In this document: piece by piece, positions 30,054-55,451 of the stretch
Layout of the letters: every line of letters begins with the position of its first letter
Position numbering within the stretch: position 1 is the stretch's first letter
NCBI RefSeq assembly: GCF_002843315.1
Contig: NZ_MVDD01000006.1
Location: 148,001-212,000, forward strand
Length of the DNA: 64,000 nucleotides
Reading direction: 5' to 3'
Origin: Labilibaculum filiforme
GTDB taxonomy: Bacteria > Bacteroidota > Bacteroidia > Bacteroidales > Marinifilaceae
Translations under genes and position numbers: made by a program
Notes under the pieces: model-generated
What the model saw: only the letters and a program-made list of their open reading frames with translations
The model's database searches: none
Told to the model about the DNA's origin: nothing

Positions 30054-30816
30054 AAACTTGTTTTTTTGATTACCCTACTCGTATGGCTTTTCAGTGCCGC
30101 CCTGTTTTTAAAGTGTTTCAAGACTCCACTTGTAATTCAACACCATTATATTATTAACTATTATAACAATATTCATTACGCACTATCTAATTTAACATGA
30201 TATATCCTAAAAGTCAATAGCTAATTTAATTATTTCTAATAAATCGATAAATAAACCTTTGCGCACCAACATTAACCAACTAAACTATAAGCCTGTAAGA
30301 ATATTAACGACACATACAAACTTCAACTAACTTGATGTGCGAAGCTACTATTTAGATAACTAAATCACTTTAAAACAAACAATAATTATAAACATAACAT
30401 AGATTGAAATAGCTCGAATTTAATTAGCCAGAAATACCCATTAATTAATGCAATACCAATTTCATTTGAAAATAGACTTTCATTAAAAATGAATTAATTT
30501 TTAGCTGTAACGAGGCAAAAAAGTAAAGCATAGCCAAGTTACGGTGCATCTTTTTTAACAAAGATATAGCTGACAAGAAACATTTTATAGAACTTATTTT
30601 GATGTTAATTTACCAATCAACACCTAAAAACCGCACATCATAACAAGTATTTTTTCAAGCCAATTTCTCTTTTTTATCTTTCCTTATTTCAGTTAATAAA
30701 AAATAAGATGCTCACTTAACTTGTTATAATACTGACAGAATATTTTAAACAGCCTCTTATAACAAAAAAAAATGCGCTCTTTTCAGAACGCATTTTAAAA
30801 TAAAGTATTTGATTAT
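30054..30816. other. Long AT-rich region without recognisable genes
   Basis: 763 bp upstream of the 162-residue gene. I find no supported small reading frame, no exact TAnnTTTG promoter in either useful direction, and no RNA gene. It contains a 9-bp inverted repeat (TTGTTATAA at 30721-30729 and TTATAACAA at 30757-30765) next to the S9 peptidase terminator. Confidence 0.55.
30769..30796 (-). terminator. Intrinsic terminator of the S9 peptidase gene
   Basis: AAAATGCG (30769-30776) pairs with CGCATTTT (30789-30796) around a 12-nt loop, and on the minus strand nine T follow. It lies 20 bp past the stop codon. Confidence 0.82.
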
Positions 30817-43449: not shown

Positions 43450-43481
43450 TTGACATAGTCTGTATTTATACCTAACTTTTG
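43450..43481 (+). promoter_or_regulatory. Possible promoter of the subtilase gene
   Basis: TTGACA (43450-43455), 17 bp, then TAACTTTTG (43473-43481). It resembles a sigma-70 promoter and is one base off the TAnnTTTG box. It lies 36 bp upstream of the chosen ATG and covers the alternative start at 43479. Confidence 0.35.
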
Positions 43482-43517
43482 TTTTGTTATCAAAATATTC
43501 ACTATAAACCATTAGTT

Positions 43518-46500
43518 ATGAAAAAAATCTTTACTCTTCTTATTTGTTGTATTTTTATTATCTCATCGGGATACTCCCAAAAACGGGAAGTCGATTCGGA
43601 TGGAAAATACCAAGGAATTATTCGTATAAAATTTACATCCAAATCGGATAAAAAGGTAGCCGATCTGCACCAGCTTCTTATAGATAGAAGTAAATTACAA
43701 ACCAAAAGTGCCGAAGAATTTGTTCGTACCAACATTCCGAATCTCGACAAGGTAAACCAACTGTTTAAGGCAAACAAAATGCGTCGTGTTTTTCGTGATG
43801 CTGGTAAATTTGAAGCTAAACACAAAGAATTTGGTTTACACCTTTGGTACGAAGTGGAATTTAATTCATCTACACCTGTATCTCAGCTAATTCAATCGTA
43901 CCAAGGAGTAGCTGAAATTGCAATGGCTGAAGGAATTAATGCAACAAAACAAATAGAAGGTGTTCAATTTCTGGAAGGTAATAATAATCCTGTTTCAACA
44001 GCTCTTCCGGTAGGTACTAATGATCCACGTTTTGGAGATCAGTGGCATTACGAAAATACCGGACAAAATAATGGAACTCCAGGTGCTGACATTAGTTTAC
44101 TGGATGCATGGAAGATTGAAACTGGTAATTCCAGCGTAATTGTTGCAATTGAAGATGGTGGTGTTGATTTTGACCACGTTGACTTAGCTGCAAATATGTG
44201 GATAAATCCTGGTGAAATAGTTGGCAATGGTATCGATGATGATAATAATGGATATGTTGATGATATTTATGGTTATAATTTTGCTGATGATACTGGAGAA
44301 ATTTATGTAGGCGATCATGGAACCCATGTTGCAGGAACAGTAGCGGCAGTATCAAACAATGGTATTGGCGTTAGTGGTATAGCAGGAGGTAGTGGAAATA
44401 ATGATGGTGTTAAATTAATGTCCTGTAATGTGTTTTCGGCCGGCAGTGGTGGTTTTGCAGAAGCTTACACCTACGCCGCTGATAATGGTGCAGTTATCTC
44501 TCAAAACAGTTGGAGTTATTCCTATCCATACCAATTCGATCAGGCTGTTTTGGATGGTATTGACTACTTTATTGCAAATGCAGGTGGTGCCAATGCACCA
44601 ATGAATGGTGGTATTGTAATTTTTGCAGCTGGTAATGATAATTCTCAAAGTAGATATTATCCTGCTTATTACGATAATGTACTTGCAGTTGCTGCCACCA
44701 ATAAGAACGATGTGAAATCTTACTATTCCAATTATGGAACATGGGTAGATATAGCGGCTCCAGGTGGTGAATTAGAAACAACCAATGAAGATCCTACTGC
44801 CGTGCTAAGTACTTTTCCAAATGATAATTATGGCGTTTTTCAGGGAACATCCATGGCTTGTCCTCACGTATCCGGGGTTGCTGCTCTTATTATCTCCAAG
44901 TATGCAGGAAATATTACTCCGACAGAATTATGGACGAAATTAGTTGACAATACCGATCCTATCGATGCCTTGAATAATTCTCGTTATGCAGGGAAACTTG
45001 GTAGTGGAAGATTGAATGCTTACCGTGCACTTACTGATGATAATTTACCTTCTGTACCTTCTGGCTTAACTGCTACAAATGTAACTCAAACCAGCTTTAC
45101 CATTGGATGGAATGCTGTTAGTGGTGCGCAAAGTTACGACCTTCAAATAAGAGAACAAGGAGGTGCCTGGCAAAACATCAACACAGCAGAAATTACCTAT
45201 AACTACTCTGGTGCAACTGCTGAAACAACTTATGAATTTCAGGTTAGAGCGAATAATGATGCAGGATCTAGTAGTTATTCTGCAATTGCATCCGTTATAA
45301 CCGAAGCTGCTCCAACTGTTCCTGTAGCTCCATCGAACCTTACAGCCTCGAATATTACTTATAATTCACTCTCTGTAAATTGGGATTCTGTAACAGATGC
45401 GACAGATTACGATCTTGATTCACGGCCATTAGGGGGAACTTGGACTACGGTAAATTTAACTAGTACAAATTTCGATTTCACGGATCTAATTTCTGAAACT
45501 ACTTACGAATTTCAGGTTAGAGCAAATAATGCCATTGGCACTAGTGCTAACTCGAACTTAATAGCTGCAACTACCCTTATTGCTCCAACCGCACCTAATG
45601 TACCAACAAATTTAATTGCTTCGAACATCACTTACGACTCCTTTACCATTACTTGGGATGTTACTACCGATGCCACCGAATACGATTTAAACGTACGACC
45701 AGTGGGGGGAACTTGGACAAGTATAACCCAAACTACTACTAGTTACGAATACTCTGATTTAACTGCTGAAACAAGCTACGAATTTCAGGTAAGAGCAACT
45801 AACAGTATTGGTTCAAGTGAATATTCAGCAATTGAAACTGCTACTACCTTAATTGCTCCTGCAGCACCAACTACACCAGTTAATTTATTGGCATCGAATA
45901 TCACCTACAACGCCTTTACCATTACTTGGGATGCAAGTACTGATGCTACTGATTACGATTTAAACCTACGACCAGTTGGTGGAACTTGGACAAGCATAAA
46001 TCAAACTGCAACTAGTTACGAATACACTGATTTAACTGCTGAAACAAGCTACGAATTTCAGGTAAGAGCAACTAACAGTATTGGTTCAAGTGAATATTCA
46101 GCAATTGAAACTGCTACTACCTTAATTGCTCCTGCAGCACCAGCCACACCAGTTAATTTATTAGCATCGAATATCACCTACAACGCCTTTACCATTGCTT
46201 GGGATGCAAGTACTGATGCTACTGATTACGATTTAAACGTACGACCAGTTGGTGGAACTTGGACAAGCATAAATCAAACTGCAACTAGTTACGAATACAC
46301 TGATTTAACTGCTGAAACAAGCTACGAATTTCAGGTTAGAGCAAACAATGCTAATGGTTCCAGTGCTTACTCGGGTATTGTGAGTGCAACTACTTTAGTA
46401 GGTCCTACAGCTCCTGTAGCACCTTCGAATTTACTAGCAACAAACATCACCTACAATTCATTTACAATTAGCTGGGACGTTGTTACAGATGCAAGCGATT

Positions 46501-47690
46501 ACGATTTAGATATTCGAGAAGCAGGAGGAACTTGGTCAACTATGAATACTAGTACCACCACTTACAATTACACCTCAGCAATAGCTTCTACTATCTACGA
46601 ATTTAGAGTTCGATCAAATAATGAGATTGGTTCTGGAGAATACTCAGCTATTGAATCATTAACAACAGATCCTATCCCTGTACCTGAAGTACCAACAGCA
46701 CTATCGGCAAGCAATATTACCTCAAGTTCGTTCAGCTTAAGCTGGGATAATATGGAATTTGCAGCTACTTACGAGCTTCAGATTAGAGCACAAGGTGAAA
46801 GTTGGGAACTTTTCACTACATCGGCTACAAGTTTCGACTACTCTGGTGCAATGGCCGAAACGAGTTATGAATTTCAAGTTCTAGCGAGTAATAGCACTGG
46901 TTCAAGTGCATATACTTCAATTCAATCCGTAACCACCTTGCCTGAAGCTGCAACTCCAGATTATTGTGAATGCTACGGTAAAGATACTCGATATGAGTAT
47001 ATTGATTTAGTGGAATTAGCAAATATGAGTAATCCATCAGGTGACGATGGCGGATATGGCGATTATACCAATATGATCGCAAATGTTCAACCAGGCAACA
47101 ATTATACTCTAAATTTCTCATTAGCATACAAAAGCAGAACTTACACTGCTAACTGGAGTGTATACATTGACTTTAACCGAGATGGAAATTTTACAGCTAA
47201 TGAATTAGTTGTTTCAGGTTATACTGCAAGTGCAGCTATTTCAACATCTAATATTTCTATTCCAGCAAGTGCAGCAATTGGACATACTAGAATGAGAGTA
47301 ATTCTTAAACACAGAAGAGCTGCCAAATCTGGATGTGAAATATTTAGTCAGGGCGAAGTGGAGGACTATACTCTAGACATTAGTAATACCGCTCCAGCAA
47401 TAGCTGCTAGGTCATCAGCAATCAATTTTGGCGCACCACTTAGTCAAACCCCTCCTATCGAGGAATTAAAATTATTCCCAAATCCAGCTAAAGATTATGT
47501 AACCCTTTACATACAAGGAAACATTCAATCTAAAGTGAAAATTAGCTCTATAACAGGGAAAACAATTAAAATGCTAACACTTGATCAGGAAAATAATACC
47601 ATAGATGTCTCCAATTTACCTTCGGGAATTTATTTTATCTCGATTGAAGATGGTGATGAAATTATTTCTAAAAAATTGATAAAATTATAA
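43518..47690 (+). CDS. Secreted S8 subtilase with seven fibronectin III domains, GEVED domain and type IX sorting signal
   Basis: A 1390-residue exported protease from the ATG at 43518; the first 20 residues are a signal peptide ending SSGYSQ. A pro-region (about 21-150) precedes the peptidase domain with the triad in VAIEDGGVDFDHVD (Asp), GDHGTHVAGTVAA (His) and GTSMACPHVSGVAAL (Ser). Seven fibronectin III units follow (from about 45050 to 46945), then a GEVED domain with YIDFNRDGNFTANE and GEVEDYTLDI, and a C-terminal type A sorting domain (LKLFPNPAKDYVTLYI, GIYFISIEDGD, ending KKLIKL). It should be exported by the type IX system and attached to the cell surface or released. FnIII units 3-5 are nearly identical at DNA level. 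Confidence 0.93.
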   Translation: MKKIFTLLICCIFIISSGYSQKREVDSDGKYQGIIRIKFTSKSDKKVADLHQLLIDRSKLQTKSAEEFVRTNIPNLDKVNQLFKANKMRRVFRDAGKFEAKHKEFGLHLWYEVEFNSSTPVSQLIQSYQGVAEIAMAEGINATKQIEGVQFLEGNNNPVSTALPVGTNDPRFGDQWHYENTGQNNGTPGADISLLDAWKIETGNSSVIVAIEDGGVDFDHVDLAANMWINPGEIVGNGIDDDNNGYVDDIYGYNFADDTGEIYVGDHGTHVAGTVAAVSNNGIGVSGIAGGSGNNDGVKLMSCNVFSAGSGGFAEAYTYAADNGAVISQNSWSYSYPYQFDQAVLDGIDYFIANAGGANAPMNGGIVIFAAGNDNSQSRYYPAYYDNVLAVAATNKNDVKSYYSNYGTWVDIAAPGGELETTNEDPTAVLSTFPNDNYGVFQGTSMACPHVSGVAALIISKYAGNITPTELWTKLVDNTDPIDALNNSRYAGKLGSGRLNAYRALTDDNLPSVPSGLTATNVTQTSFTIGWNAVSGAQSYDLQIREQGGAWQNINTAEITYNYSGATAETTYEFQVRANNDAGSSSYSAIASVITEAAPTVPVAPSNLTASNITYNSLSVNWDSVTDATDYDLDSRPLGGTWTTVNLTSTNFDFTDLISETTYEFQVRANNAIGTSANSNLIAATTLIAPTAPNVPTNLIASNITYDSFTITWDVTTDATEYDLNVRPVGGTWTSITQTTTSYEYSDLTAETSYEFQVRATNSIGSSEYSAIETATTLIAPAAPTTPVNLLASNITYNAFTITWDASTDATDYDLNLRPVGGTWTSINQTATSYEYTDLTAETSYEFQVRATNSIGSSEYSAIETATTLIAPAAPATPVNLLASNITYNAFTIAWDASTDATDYDLNVRPVGGTWTSINQTATSYEYTDLTAETSYEFQVRANNANGSSAYSGIVSATTLVGPTAPVAPSNLLATNITYNSFTISWDVVTDASDYDLDIREAGGTWSTMNTSTTTYNYTSAIASTIYEFRVRSNNEIGSGEYSAIESLTTDPIPVPEVPTALSASNITSSSFSLSWDNMEFAATYELQIRAQGESWELFTTSATSFDYSGAMAETSYEFQVLASNSTGSSAYTSIQSVTTLPEAATPDYCECYGKDTRYEYIDLVELANMSNPSGDDGGYGDYTNMIANVQPGNNYTLNFSLAYKSRTYTANWSVYIDFNRDGNFTANELVVSGYTASAAISTSNISIPASAAIGHTRMRVILKHRRAAKSGCEIFSQGEVEDYTLDISNTAPAIAARSSAINFGAPLSQTPPIEELKLFPNPAKDYVTLYIQGNIQSKVKISSITGKTIKMLTLDQENNTIDVSNLPSGIYFISIEDGDEIISKKLIKL
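45588..46406 (+). repeat. Tandem 273-bp repeats encoding FnIII units
   Basis: Three consecutive 273-bp (91-codon) units start at about 45588, 45861 and 46134. The second and third differ at only a few positions over most of their length, including long identical stretches around GAATATCACCTACAACGCC, so they are recent duplicates within the coding sequence. Confidence 0.85.
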
Positions 47691-53035: not shown

Positions 53036-53758
53036 TTATTTTAGATGTTCCTCTGCCCAAGCCAAATCATCTGGTTTTCCAAGGTCTGACCATATTTTAG
53101 AATTATCTTTAAAAGCCAATATTTTTTCATTTTTAGCTAGGCGTAAATACAAATCGATAACGGAAAACTTACCTTCCTCAGTAATCAATGAAAACAGTTT
53201 ATAATCTAATAAATGAATTCCACTAAAAGCCAGATGTTCCGATTTAGTCATCTCTTTCCTGGCCACCTTTATTTCTCCGGTTTTACAATTTTCCCATCCG
53301 GTTAATTGATTATCCTTGTTAAAATATAAATAGCGACTACTAGATCGTTCTCGCATCACCATACTTACCAATGCTCCGGTAAGCTTGTGAAAATTAATCA
53401 GCTCTGTTAAATCCAAGGATGAATAAACATCAACATTATAGATTAAAACTGGTGCTCCAGGAATAAATAAACCTGCTGCCTTCTTCAATCCTCCTCCTGT
53501 ATCCAACAATTCTTCCCTTTCATCTGAAATGCGGATATCTGCACCAAAATTGTTATTTGCATGAAGAAATTCCTCAATTAGATCGGCATAATGGTGCACA
53601 TTAATAACAATACGATCCACTTTTAATTCTATTAGCTTCCGAATTGCTCTTTCTAAAAGTGGCTTTCCTCCTAGTTCAACCAAAGCTTTGGGTTTTGAAT
53701 CGGTATAAGGTTTTAAACGAGTGCCTAAACCCGCCGCAAAAATCATAGCATTTAACAT
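53036..53758 (-). CDS. Sugar-1-phosphate nucleotidyltransferase (MurU-like)
   Basis: A 240-residue single-domain NTP-transferase: FAAGLGTRLKPYTDSKPKAL at the start (nucleotide binding), VELGGKPLLERAI, the metal Asp in LIYNVDVYSSLDL and a C-terminal KIWSDLGKPDDL. The short length and absence of an acyltransferase tail match MurU (MurNAc-1-phosphate uridylyltransferase), the partner of the kinase AmgK in Pseudomonas cell-wall recycling. Here it is downstream of an AmgK-like kinase fusion with only a small Cys-rich gene between them, which makes this role the best guess; GDP-heptose or GlcNAc-1-P use is not excluded. Confidence 0.82.
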   Translation of the reverse strand: MLNAMIFAAGLGTRLKPYTDSKPKALVELGGKPLLERAIRKLIELKVDRIVINVHHYADLIEEFLHANNNFGADIRISDEREELLDTGGGLKKAAGLFIPGAPVLIYNVDVYSSLDLTELINFHKLTGALVSMVMRERSSSRYLYFNKDNQLTGWENCKTGEIKVARKEMTKSEHLAFSGIHLLDYKLFSLITEEGKFSVIDLYLRLAKNEKILAFKDNSKIWSDLGKPDDLAWAEEHLK

Positions 53759-53818
53759 CCTATTTAATTAAGAATTATAAATTAATAATGGAGAATTATT
53801 ATTCTCAAAAAGTTACAT

Positions 53819-53959
53819 TCAGCTAAGCTTCTTTATTGGTTTGCATAGTTTTTTTGCCATTTTGGCAATCCTGTTGCATTTTTTGCAAACAAAATTCTCC
53901 GAATCGCATACTTTTTCTGCATATTCCTTCGGTGATAATTTACAACGTTTCTTGCCCAT
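53819..53959 (-). CDS. 46-residue Cys- and Lys-rich small protein
   Basis: A 47-codon frame (with stop) starting at the ATG at 53959, one base after the stop of the kinase-RapZ gene and upstream of the MurU-like gene. The product starts MGKKRCKLSPKEYAEKVCD and has five cysteines (6, 18, 25, 28, 39), including a CKKC knuckle in FVCKKCNRIAKMAKKLCKP, and 12 lysines. Tight spacing, a sensible metal-ligand pattern (CX2C with flanking Cys) and strong basic bias speak for a real gene. I recognise no family; a zinc-ribbon-like, perhaps nucleic-acid-binding, protein is a guess. Confidence 0.65.
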   Translation of the reverse strand: MGKKRCKLSPKEYAEKVCDSENFVCKKCNRIAKMAKKLCKPIKKLS

Positions 53960-53960
53960 A

Positions 53961-55400
53961 CTAGCTTCCTTCTATTTCTCTCTCGATGTGACGTAAACTG
54001 ATATTTACATCAAACTTTTCACGCAAATGTTTTGCCAAACTCTCTGCCGAAAAAACGGAACGATGCCTCCCACCTGTACAACCAAAATTCACTTGTAAAT
54101 TGGCAAAGTTGCGACTAATATATTTATCAACACTCATATCTACAATACTATAAACGGAGCTTAAAAATTCCTCCATTTCACTGTGCTCTTTAAAAAATTC
54201 AATTACCGGCTGGTCTTTTCCTGTCATTTCTACATATTCCTGATATCTTCCAGGATTATGAATGGCTCGACAATCGAAAACAAAACCTCCACCGTTAGTC
54301 GTTTTATCTAAAGGAATTCCTCGGCGATACGAAAAACTATTTATTTCGACATGCAATTTTGGCTTTTCTTCTTTGCCTACACTTTTCAGAAAATCAGAAG
54401 AAATTACAGCTTTAAGAGCATTCAGCAATTCAGGTAATTCAACGGGAATATCCATTCTTTGCAAAATAGTTTCCAAATTTTTCAATGCGAAGGGAATTGA
54501 TTTTAAGAAGTGATCTTTTCTTTCGTAAAAACCTCTAAAACCATAGGCTCCCATTGCCTGCATGATACGAATTAAAACATAACCCTCGAAAAATGAAGTA
54601 AAAGCTTTTGAATCAACTTCCTGTACTTTTTGAATTTCCTCCAGATAAAATGCCAATAATTCATCTCTAACATCCTGTGGCAGATCGGCTTTGGCATCGT
54701 ACAACAAGGAAGCCAAATCGTATTGCAATGCTCCTTTTCTTCCTCCCTGATAATCGATAAACCAAGGCTCACCATTTACCAACATGATGTTTCTGGATTG
54801 AAAATCCCGATACAAAAAGTAATCGCGGGGAGCATCTAATAAATAATCCGAGAATTGCTGAAAATCATTCTCGAGTAATTGTTCATCGAATGGAATTTTT
54901 GCCAATTTCAGAAAATAGTATTTGAAATAATGTAAATCCCAAATCATCGATTGCTTATCGAAACTATCTCTGGGATAGCAAACCGAATAATCCAATCCAT
55001 TCTCTCCTTCTAGCTGAAAACGAACCAATTGAGAGATAATCTTTTTGTAAATTACGATTAGATCGGTGGCGAAACCTTCACCTATTCTCAAATGAAGTAT
55101 GTAATCGAATAAAGTTGTATTGCCTAAATCCTGTATAAGATAAATATCATGATCAAGATTCTCGCAGTATATTTCAGGAACAGATAAGCCTTTAGATTCA
55201 AAATGTTTACTAAAACTGATAAAAGCAATATTCTCCTTTTTATCAGCATTATAAACTCCAATAACCGTTCTCTTTTCTCCAACTAAGCGGATGTATTCAC
55301 GATAAGAACCTGATTGAGGTAAAATTTCTGTTTCAATTACTCTATCGTCAGCCCATTCTTCAAATAAATGAATTAGAGCAAGTTTAATTTCTTCTTTCAA
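53961..55400 (-). CDS. AmgK-like amino-sugar kinase fused to a RapZ C-terminal domain
   Basis: A 479-residue fusion. Residues about 1-320 are an aminoglycoside-phosphotransferase-fold kinase resembling AmgK: the catalytic loop YRDFQSRNIMLV (Tyr where most relatives have His) and the metal Asp in WFIDYQGGRKGALQYDLASL. Residues about 345-479 match the RapZ C-terminal domain, with FVFDCRAIHNPGRY and VNFGCTGGRHRSVFSAESLA; the N-terminal P-loop half of RapZ is absent. In E. coli that C-terminal domain binds glucosamine-6-phosphate. The start is TTG at 55400 because no ATG precedes the conserved part; a TAGATTTG box lies 44 bp upstream. A MurU-like gene follows. Confidence 0.88.
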   Translation of the reverse strand: MKEEIKLALIHLFEEWADDRVIETEILPQSGSYREYIRLVGEKRTVIGVYNADKKENIAFISFSKHFESKGLSVPEIYCENLDHDIYLIQDLGNTTLFDYILHLRIGEGFATDLIVIYKKIISQLVRFQLEGENGLDYSVCYPRDSFDKQSMIWDLHYFKYYFLKLAKIPFDEQLLENDFQQFSDYLLDAPRDYFLYRDFQSRNIMLVNGEPWFIDYQGGRKGALQYDLASLLYDAKADLPQDVRDELLAFYLEEIQKVQEVDSKAFTSFFEGYVLIRIMQAMGAYGFRGFYERKDHFLKSIPFALKNLETILQRMDIPVELPELLNALKAVISSDFLKSVGKEEKPKLHVEINSFSYRRGIPLDKTTNGGGFVFDCRAIHNPGRYQEYVEMTGKDQPVIEFFKEHSEMEEFLSSVYSIVDMSVDKYISRNFANLQVNFGCTGGRHRSVFSAESLAKHLREKFDVNISLRHIEREIEGS

Positions 55401-55443: not shown

Positions 55444-55451
55444 CAAATCTA
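55444..55451 (-). promoter_or_regulatory. Possible promoter of the kinase-RapZ operon
   Basis: Plus-strand CAAATCTA reads TAGATTTG on the minus strand, an exact TAnnTTTG box, 44 bp before the TTG start. No -33 TTTG at the expected distance. Confidence 0.35.

Follow-up and report, generated by a model that had tools for sequence, protein, structure and literature searches.

A RapZ C-terminal domain fused to an AmgK-like kinase and tied to a MurU-like enzyme in Labilibaculum filiforme: a possible sensing module in amino-sugar salvage

What does the C-terminal half of RapZ do when it is joined to a sugar kinase and stands without the rest of RapZ? The question is raised by a gene of Labilibaculum filiforme, in a 64,000-nucleotide stretch of contig NZ_MVDD01000006.1 (positions 148,001 to 212,000; hereafter the window), which encodes an AmgK-like kinase and a RapZ C-terminal domain in one protein of 479 amino acids and is followed by a gene for a MurU-like uridylyltransferase. 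The known role of RapZ is as an RNA adaptor, and the action of its pocket on glucosamine-6-phosphate (GlcN6P) is left open in the accessible parts of the papers on it. Here the domain occurs naturally without its P-loop half and is linked to two enzymes with assayable reactions, a kinase and a uridylyltransferase, so that sensing and hydrolysis can be tested directly against each other. Across the genomes compared, the domain (RapZ_C) is tied to salvage of the AmgK/MurU type, probably without RNA. We tentatively read the locus as an anabolic salvage module for N-acetylmuramic acid (MurNAc) and N-acetylglucosamine (GlcNAc) in which the RapZ domain senses an amino-sugar phosphate, probably free of small RNAs; this is our preferred reading, held with less than even confidence.

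The first-pass annotation, made from the DNA letters alone, had described a kinase joined in one gene to a RapZ C-terminal domain without the P-loop half, followed by a 46-residue gene and a MurU-like gene. Profile searches and a structure prediction bore this out (Table 1). AmgK (NF045759) is the best NCBIfam family of the kinase half (residues 20-317; 61.9 bits; E 5.6e-17), and a Pfam scan matched residues 36-260 to the APH family PF01636 (E 1.5e-7; 31.9 bits against a cut-off of 23.2). The RapZ half matched PF22740 far above its cut-off (E 1.2e-33; 116.3 bits against 27). It is the single RapZ_C of its genome, and the RapZ P-loop half (PF03668) has no match in the fusion protein or in that genome. 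Sequence matches of the fusion in the PDB were to the RapZ entries 5o5o, 5o5q and 5o5s and to the kinase 3csv. With the AlphaFold2 model (predicted local distance difference test score 90.5; predicted template modelling score 0.69) a fold search returned 3csv first, with RapZ among the matches. This APH-fold kinase from Silicibacter sp. TM1040 is the closest solved kinase by sequence (E 4.6e-14) and by fold (E 9.3e-12) but, unlike the fusion, has no RapZ domain. For the C-terminal domain, RapZ of Escherichia coli is the nearest match both in sequence and in fold, and the modelled domain superimposed on it (5o5s) with a Z of 19.9 and a root-mean-square deviation of 1.4 over 123 residues. The best relatives are in Labilibaculum (92%). 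Residues were compared among 109 fusions (108 distinct, L048 being the same as L087; the window copy included), 12 domains encoded as separate genes and 7 canonical RapZ. D199, N204 and D216, the catalytic and metal-binding residues of an APH-fold kinase, are invariant in 109/109 fusions, and the FIDYQ motif holding D216 is presumably metal-binding by analogy with APH kinases. The first-pass remark that the catalytic loop has Tyr for the usual His is correct and applies family-wide, position 197 being Tyr in 76, Phe in 26, Met in 6 and His in 1 of the 109 fusions.

Table 1. Features of the fusion locus, in window positions
Feature	Positions	Strand	Evidence or remark
MurU-like sugar-1-phosphate uridylyltransferase, 240 amino acids	53036..53758	-	NF045697 119.2 bits, NF045761 119.1 bits; PF00483 E 5.9e-20
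46-amino-acid gene, five cysteines, two as CxxC	53819..53959	-	begins one base past the fusion stop codon
Fusion gene, AmgK-like kinase and RapZ C-terminal domain, 479 amino acids, TTG start	53961..55400	-	single open frame
RapZ C-terminal domain, residues 350-472	53985..54353	-	PF22740; model against 5o5s
CTGGRHRS, residues 441-448, CX5R(S) phosphate loop, aligned with E. coli RapZ C247-S254	54057..54080	-	residue comparison
Gly384, aligned with E. coli RapZ pocket residue His190	54249..54251	-	residue comparison
AmgK-like (APH-fold) kinase domain, residues 20-317	54450..55343	-	NF045759, PF01636, 3csv by sequence and fold
FIDYQ, residues 214-218, putatively metal-binding	54747..54761	-	D216 invariant in 109 fusions
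Catalytic loop YRDFQSRN, residues 197-204	54789..54812	-	comparison of 109 fusions
TAGATTTG, resembling the Bacteroidota -7 promoter element	55444..55451	-	promoter function inferred from sequence

The protein encoded downstream matched the nucleotidyltransferase domain PF00483, and MurU was the best of 47 NCBIfam families returned for it (E up to 1); AmgK and MurU, as best families, were each well ahead of the next. In 98 of 110 loci, window included (L001-L110, not de-replicated, one of them, L100, split), a MurU-like gene lies on the same strand at most 900 nucleotides downstream, and two of the 12 loci without it end at a contig edge. Adjacency of amgK and murU is published (PMC5371407; this and the other papers are cited from their accessible parts), and the AmgK/MurU pathway of Pseudomonas has also been described for Tannerella forsythia, a member of the Bacteroidia (PMC13046382, PMC7670621). 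The locus shares with that pathway the pairing of kinase and uridylyltransferase genes as well as the best NCBIfam families. It differs from the Pseudomonas system in that its scores fall below the equivalog cut-offs and its kinase carries the RapZ C-terminal domain.

Association was assessed in 80 genomes, 49 with RapZ_C and 31 without, the latter picked from a listing or by number and unmatched by family. All 49 genomes with RapZ_C had a match to the AmgK profile, compared to 5/31 without (Fisher p 2e-16; relatedness is ignored here and in the next two p values). The weakest of these matches (G180; 27.9 bits) was to the same gene that blastp with the window kinase finds at E 1.7e-47. A match of at least 200 bits to a MurU alignment was found in 49/49 genomes with RapZ_C and 1/31 without (Fisher p 3e-21), with the 200-bit line drawn after seeing a gap from 205 to 136.5 bits and with an alignment that contained rows from some of the tested genomes (G009 among them); at an E limit of 1e-25 the counts were 49/49 and 8/31. 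The first-pass domain assignments and partnership with MurU are supported. In the 37 genomes with fusions the kinase count follows from the fusion itself, and the informative set is formed by the 12 in which RapZ_C is its own gene: all 12 have an AmgK-like kinase as well as a MurU-like protein. Kinase, RapZ_C and MurU are three consecutive genes in 8 of these 12 (nearly abutting in L122), domain and MurU stand together in one, and the domain lies apart from both in three. MurQ over its cut-off was rarer with RapZ_C (19/49) than without (23/31; p 0.003), consistent with an anabolic route that takes over from MurQ, as in Pseudomonas. Gating of the kinase by the domain, as put forward in the first pass, cannot be a general rule if it acts only within one chain, since the domain is a separate gene in eight genomes and is apart from the kinase in four more.

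Compared to the RNase E adaptor RapZ of E. coli, the fusion has in common the C-terminal domain, its fold and the phosphate loop, but has no P-loop half, has H190 and four of seven RNA-facing basic residues replaced, and has the domain fused to, or in other genomes encoded beside, a sugar kinase. The phosphate loop, which in the model connects strand 434-441 to helix 447-462, is where the invariant columns of the domain lie most densely. C441, G443, G444, H446, R447 and S448 (E. coli C247, G249, G250, H252, R253 and S254) were unchanged in 109/109 fusions, 12/12 separate domains and 7/7 canonical RapZ, with a possible bias in the separate and the non-E. coli canonical domains, which were chosen by the motif GCTGG.HRS (rows obtained for 12/12 and 6/6 loci). 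T442 (E. coli T248) was kept in 107/109 fusions and unchanged in the other two groups. Four of the five E. coli pocket positions are kept in the fusion, the exception being H190, which is Gly in 107/109 fusions and 12/12 separate domains, and Tyr or Phe in the six non-E. coli RapZ. F181 and D182, the mutation of which abolishes the dimer of the E. coli C-terminal domain (PMC5737377), were kept in 109/109 fusions. The E. coli C-terminal domain binds GlcN6P by itself (PMC7073468), and by analogy the fused form would be expected to bind it as well. Two Ancylomarina loci (L042, L043) have a shortened, fast-diverging RapZ domain, with 47% identity to the window copy compared to 65-66% in the kinase, in which the phosphate loop persists as CVGGQHRS despite the divergence. 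These fusions offer a natural test of which part of the domain matters.

Seven basic residues of E. coli RapZ face the RNA GlmZ (K170, R184, K194, R196, R211, R238 and K251; PMC9841335). The window copy has R, R, E, V, E, F and R at these positions, three of the seven being basic. A basic residue was found at the seven positions, in the same order, in 106, 109, 18, 64, 33, 0 and 24 of the 109 fusions and in 6, 6, 0, 6, 2, 6 and 6 of the six non-E. coli RapZ. By this alignment, what sets the fusion family apart is the loss at 238 and, for the most part, at 251. PF03668 was over its cut-off in 0/395 sampled genomes of the phylum, with two weaker matches outside the 49 genomes with RapZ_C. Because of this absence, and because four of the seven RNA-facing basic residues are replaced in the window copy, independence of the fusion from RNA is likely. 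The usual place of the fusion beside a MurU-like gene suggests for the RapZ half a role in sugar salvage, possibly one without RNA. Of the RNA-independent amino-sugar homeostasis put forward in the first pass, the freedom from RNA is retained as likely, and the gating of the kinase is a hypothesis.

In our preferred reading, the kinase half would phosphorylate a sugar at C1 like AmgK and the MurU-like enzyme would convert the sugar-1-phosphate to a UDP-sugar like MurU, as homology and gene order suggest. The third and dedicated part would be the RapZ C-terminal domain: with an amino-sugar phosphate bound in the CX5R loop, it would match the kinase step to the supply of amino-sugar phosphate, probably without a small RNA, with control exerted within one chain in the fusions or through a separate subunit where the genes are split. 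The comparisons above establish the architecture, the association of the three components, the conserved phosphate loop and the partial replacement of RNA-facing residues. What we infer is which ligand is bound, which sugar is used, that RNA is dispensed with and in which direction control runs. The L. filiforme genome has no AnmK. On its contig C20 (L129:9676-13601) it carries a MurQ-like gene beside a BadF-type kinase and a 660-amino-acid fusion resembling glucosamine-6-phosphate deaminase and PIG-L, an arrangement similar to the MurK/MurQ route of Tannerella. That route is described in PMC7670621. Sensing is favoured over hydrolysis in this genome because AnmK is absent and a MurQ-like gene stands beside a BadF-type kinase; a phosphatase feeding the AmgK-like kinase would work against this second route, and sensing is for that reason ranked first.

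Several observations weigh against this reading. The kinase half, at 61.9 bits, is far under the NF045759 equivalog cut-off of 550, and the MurU-like protein, at 119 bits, is under the equivalog cut-offs of 370 and 250. RapZ_C is not beside the kinase in 4/49 genomes, where the kinase lies elsewhere in the genome and any regulation must therefore act in trans. Conversely, a kinase-MurU pair without RapZ_C is present in G009, and more distant pairs are present in G010, G015 and G020. With Gly in place of H190, the ligand may differ from that of E. coli RapZ, and a domain that only senses would have no evident use for the cysteine of the CX5R loop. Regarding RNA, positions 170 and 184 keep a basic residue in almost every fusion, the window copy has Arg at 251, and the replacement of K194 and R211 appears to say little, as both are mostly non-basic in the non-E. 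coli canonical RapZ too. Finally, kinase activity and ligand binding of the fused proteins are all predicted from sequence.

A catalytic role, absent from the first-pass reading, is a live alternative. A C-x5-R-S/T loop between a strand and a helix is the signature of protein tyrosine phosphatases (PTPs), and CTGGRHRS is a full loop of this kind by residue comparison and by its placement in the model, with its cysteine kept in every fusion and every separate domain. The RapZ domain could then be a PTP-like cysteine phosphatase that strips the 6-phosphate from MurNAc-6-phosphate, GlcNAc-6-phosphate or GlcN6P and supplies the adjacent kinase with the free sugar, a role which we regard as possible if unlikely. 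It would fill the place held before AmgK and MurU in Pseudomonas by MupP, the HAD enzyme that is the sugar-6-phosphatase needed in that pathway (PMC5371407). The two would share this place only if the RapZ domain is catalytic, and they differ in kind, the latter being a CX5R-loop domain with putative activity; no HAD family was found in the fusion by a Pfam scan at E up to 1. Likeness of the loop to that of PTPs and possible hydrolysis of GlcN6P are already in print for E. coli RapZ (PMC7199280) and are not new, whereas its strict conservation in a protein partnered with a sugar kinase and a uridylyltransferase is. In E. coli RapZ, activity is abolished by either substitution C247S or C247A, and what is likely a transformed product is seen in crystals with GlcN6P, but the tested C247 and pocket variants also lost their hold on RNA, so that the loss need not be catalytic (PMC9841335), and no activity is reported in the accessible parts of the RapZ literature. 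Separate-gene forms suit an enzyme well, and the loop stays in the two strongly diverged Ancylomarina domains. Against this, no general acid was identified, and the domain fold matches RapZ and, weakly, PFK, with the PTP 3s4o (Z 5.7) only among background rows; PFK-like and PTP-like matches were too weak to use. A phosphatase also predicts a source of sugar-6-phosphate, and AnmK is the usual source of MurNAc-6-phosphate. AnmK was, however, found in 31/49 genomes with RapZ_C (a count that includes a partial match at a contig edge in G216) compared to 25/31 without (p 0.13), a difference in the opposite direction; the L. filiforme genome has none, and 13/49 have neither AnmK nor full-length MurQ. 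Co-occurrence with AnmK thus failed as support for a MupP-like role. A linkage of AnmK and RapZ_C about 10-16 kb apart on one contig (G306, G271, G005) was dropped, the G005 stretch (L146) being no operon.

The same loop would allow a wider account, which we hold to be unlikely, in which the RapZ C-terminal domain was by origin a hexosamine-6-phosphate cysteine phosphatase or phosphoenzyme and still works as such here, in a line that dephosphorylates, rephosphorylates and uridylylates, the RNA role in E. coli being a later use of the pocket. The domain might instead be mainly a dimerisation or docking module that joins the kinase and MurU for channelling, with ligand binding incidental. The dimer residues kept in every fusion and the close linkage to MurU are in keeping with this, but invariant columns are densest in the phosphate loop and in 10/49 genomes the best MurU-like gene is found apart from RapZ_C, and we consider a docking role improbable. 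An equally small probability is given to activation by the kinase and MurU-like pair of some other sugar, for surface glycans, with AmgK and MurU as nearest names only. Scores far under both equivalog cut-offs, and the genomes with neither AnmK nor full MurQ, would suit such a pair, whereas both names belong to the top-scoring family by a clear margin over the next and the genes stand in the published amgK-murU adjacency (PMC5371407). That the RapZ domain still binds RNA and makes the fusion a moonlighting regulator of an mRNA or a small RNA is very improbable, since its homology to an RNA-binding domain and the basic residues kept at 170, 184 and, in part, 196 are set against the loss of those at 238 in all fusions and at 194, 211 and 251 in most, the lack of PF03668 over cut-off throughout the phylum sample, and an Rfam search of the window in which the sole match above the gathering score was unrelated. 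That match is a DUF805 RNA (RF03081) at window positions 30068-30134 on the minus strand (62.6 bits against 51.1).

RapZ_C was found in 49 of the 395 sampled genomes of the phylum, fused in 37 (frames of 476-524 codons) and separate in 12 (134-169 codons), and in 230 of 295 sampled genomes of the order. Many Bacteroidota may, as this suggests, control their salvage of cell-wall sugars or have it built in a different way. In the family to which the window belongs, three genomes from another genus (G511, G610, G693) are without RapZ_C, perhaps by local loss. The best 80 loci of 257 relatives obtained by a scan of genome contigs include records of Elusimicrobia, Marinimicrobia, Calditrichota, Deferribacteres and Ignavibacteria. 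Six of 13 genomes from such loci had a second RapZ_C of at least 150 bits in a frame of 286-618 codons; five of these frames begin with a P-loop typical of RapZ and the sixth (L140) extends upstream. The fusion and canonical RapZ thus coexist in some genomes. The fusion also bears on the evolution of RapZ. In a domain tree of 73 rows, of low resolution with few columns and long branches flagged, canonical RapZ formed one group (100/99) and the separate-gene forms fell in two places among the fusions, a topology that fits the splitting of an older fusion into separate genes. A literature search, with most subscription papers outside its reach, returned no report of the fusion and no paper naming RapZ and AmgK together.

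A TTG codon stands at the aligned start of the fusion in 11 of 13 relatives, the remaining two having GTG and ATG. Upstream, TAGATTTG resembles the Bacteroidota -7 promoter element, TAnnTTTG, and similar letters occur near the same place in several close relatives. The 46-amino-acid protein, possibly a metal-binding mini-protein, was assigned to no Pfam family and gave only negligible matches in NCBIfam. Similar small frames were found between the fusion and MurU in 34/98 loci by a CxxC-based pattern, and more distant ones show a C, CxxC, C arrangement. Besides MurU, recurrent neighbours in 58 loci were scattered genes, and no known recycling gene was recognised by eye in the clusters. In one locus (L058:9270-11441) the fusion and MurU are followed by genes for a ROK-family sugar kinase and an MFS transporter. 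Each of the two is represented by a cluster in four of the 58 loci, with only L058 annotated, and they are possibly partners in sugar uptake. Directly upstream of the fusion in two genomes of one family, a protein of 162-182 amino acids with zinc-ribbon-like cysteines is encoded (L146:16980-17528 and L148:12130-12618, both minus strand), NMD3-like at 27-31 bits. Elsewhere in the window (43479-47690, plus strand), a 1403-amino-acid protein, judged by eye to be subtilisin-like, carries what looks like a run of very similar fibronectin-III-like repeats and a C-terminal sorting-like tail.

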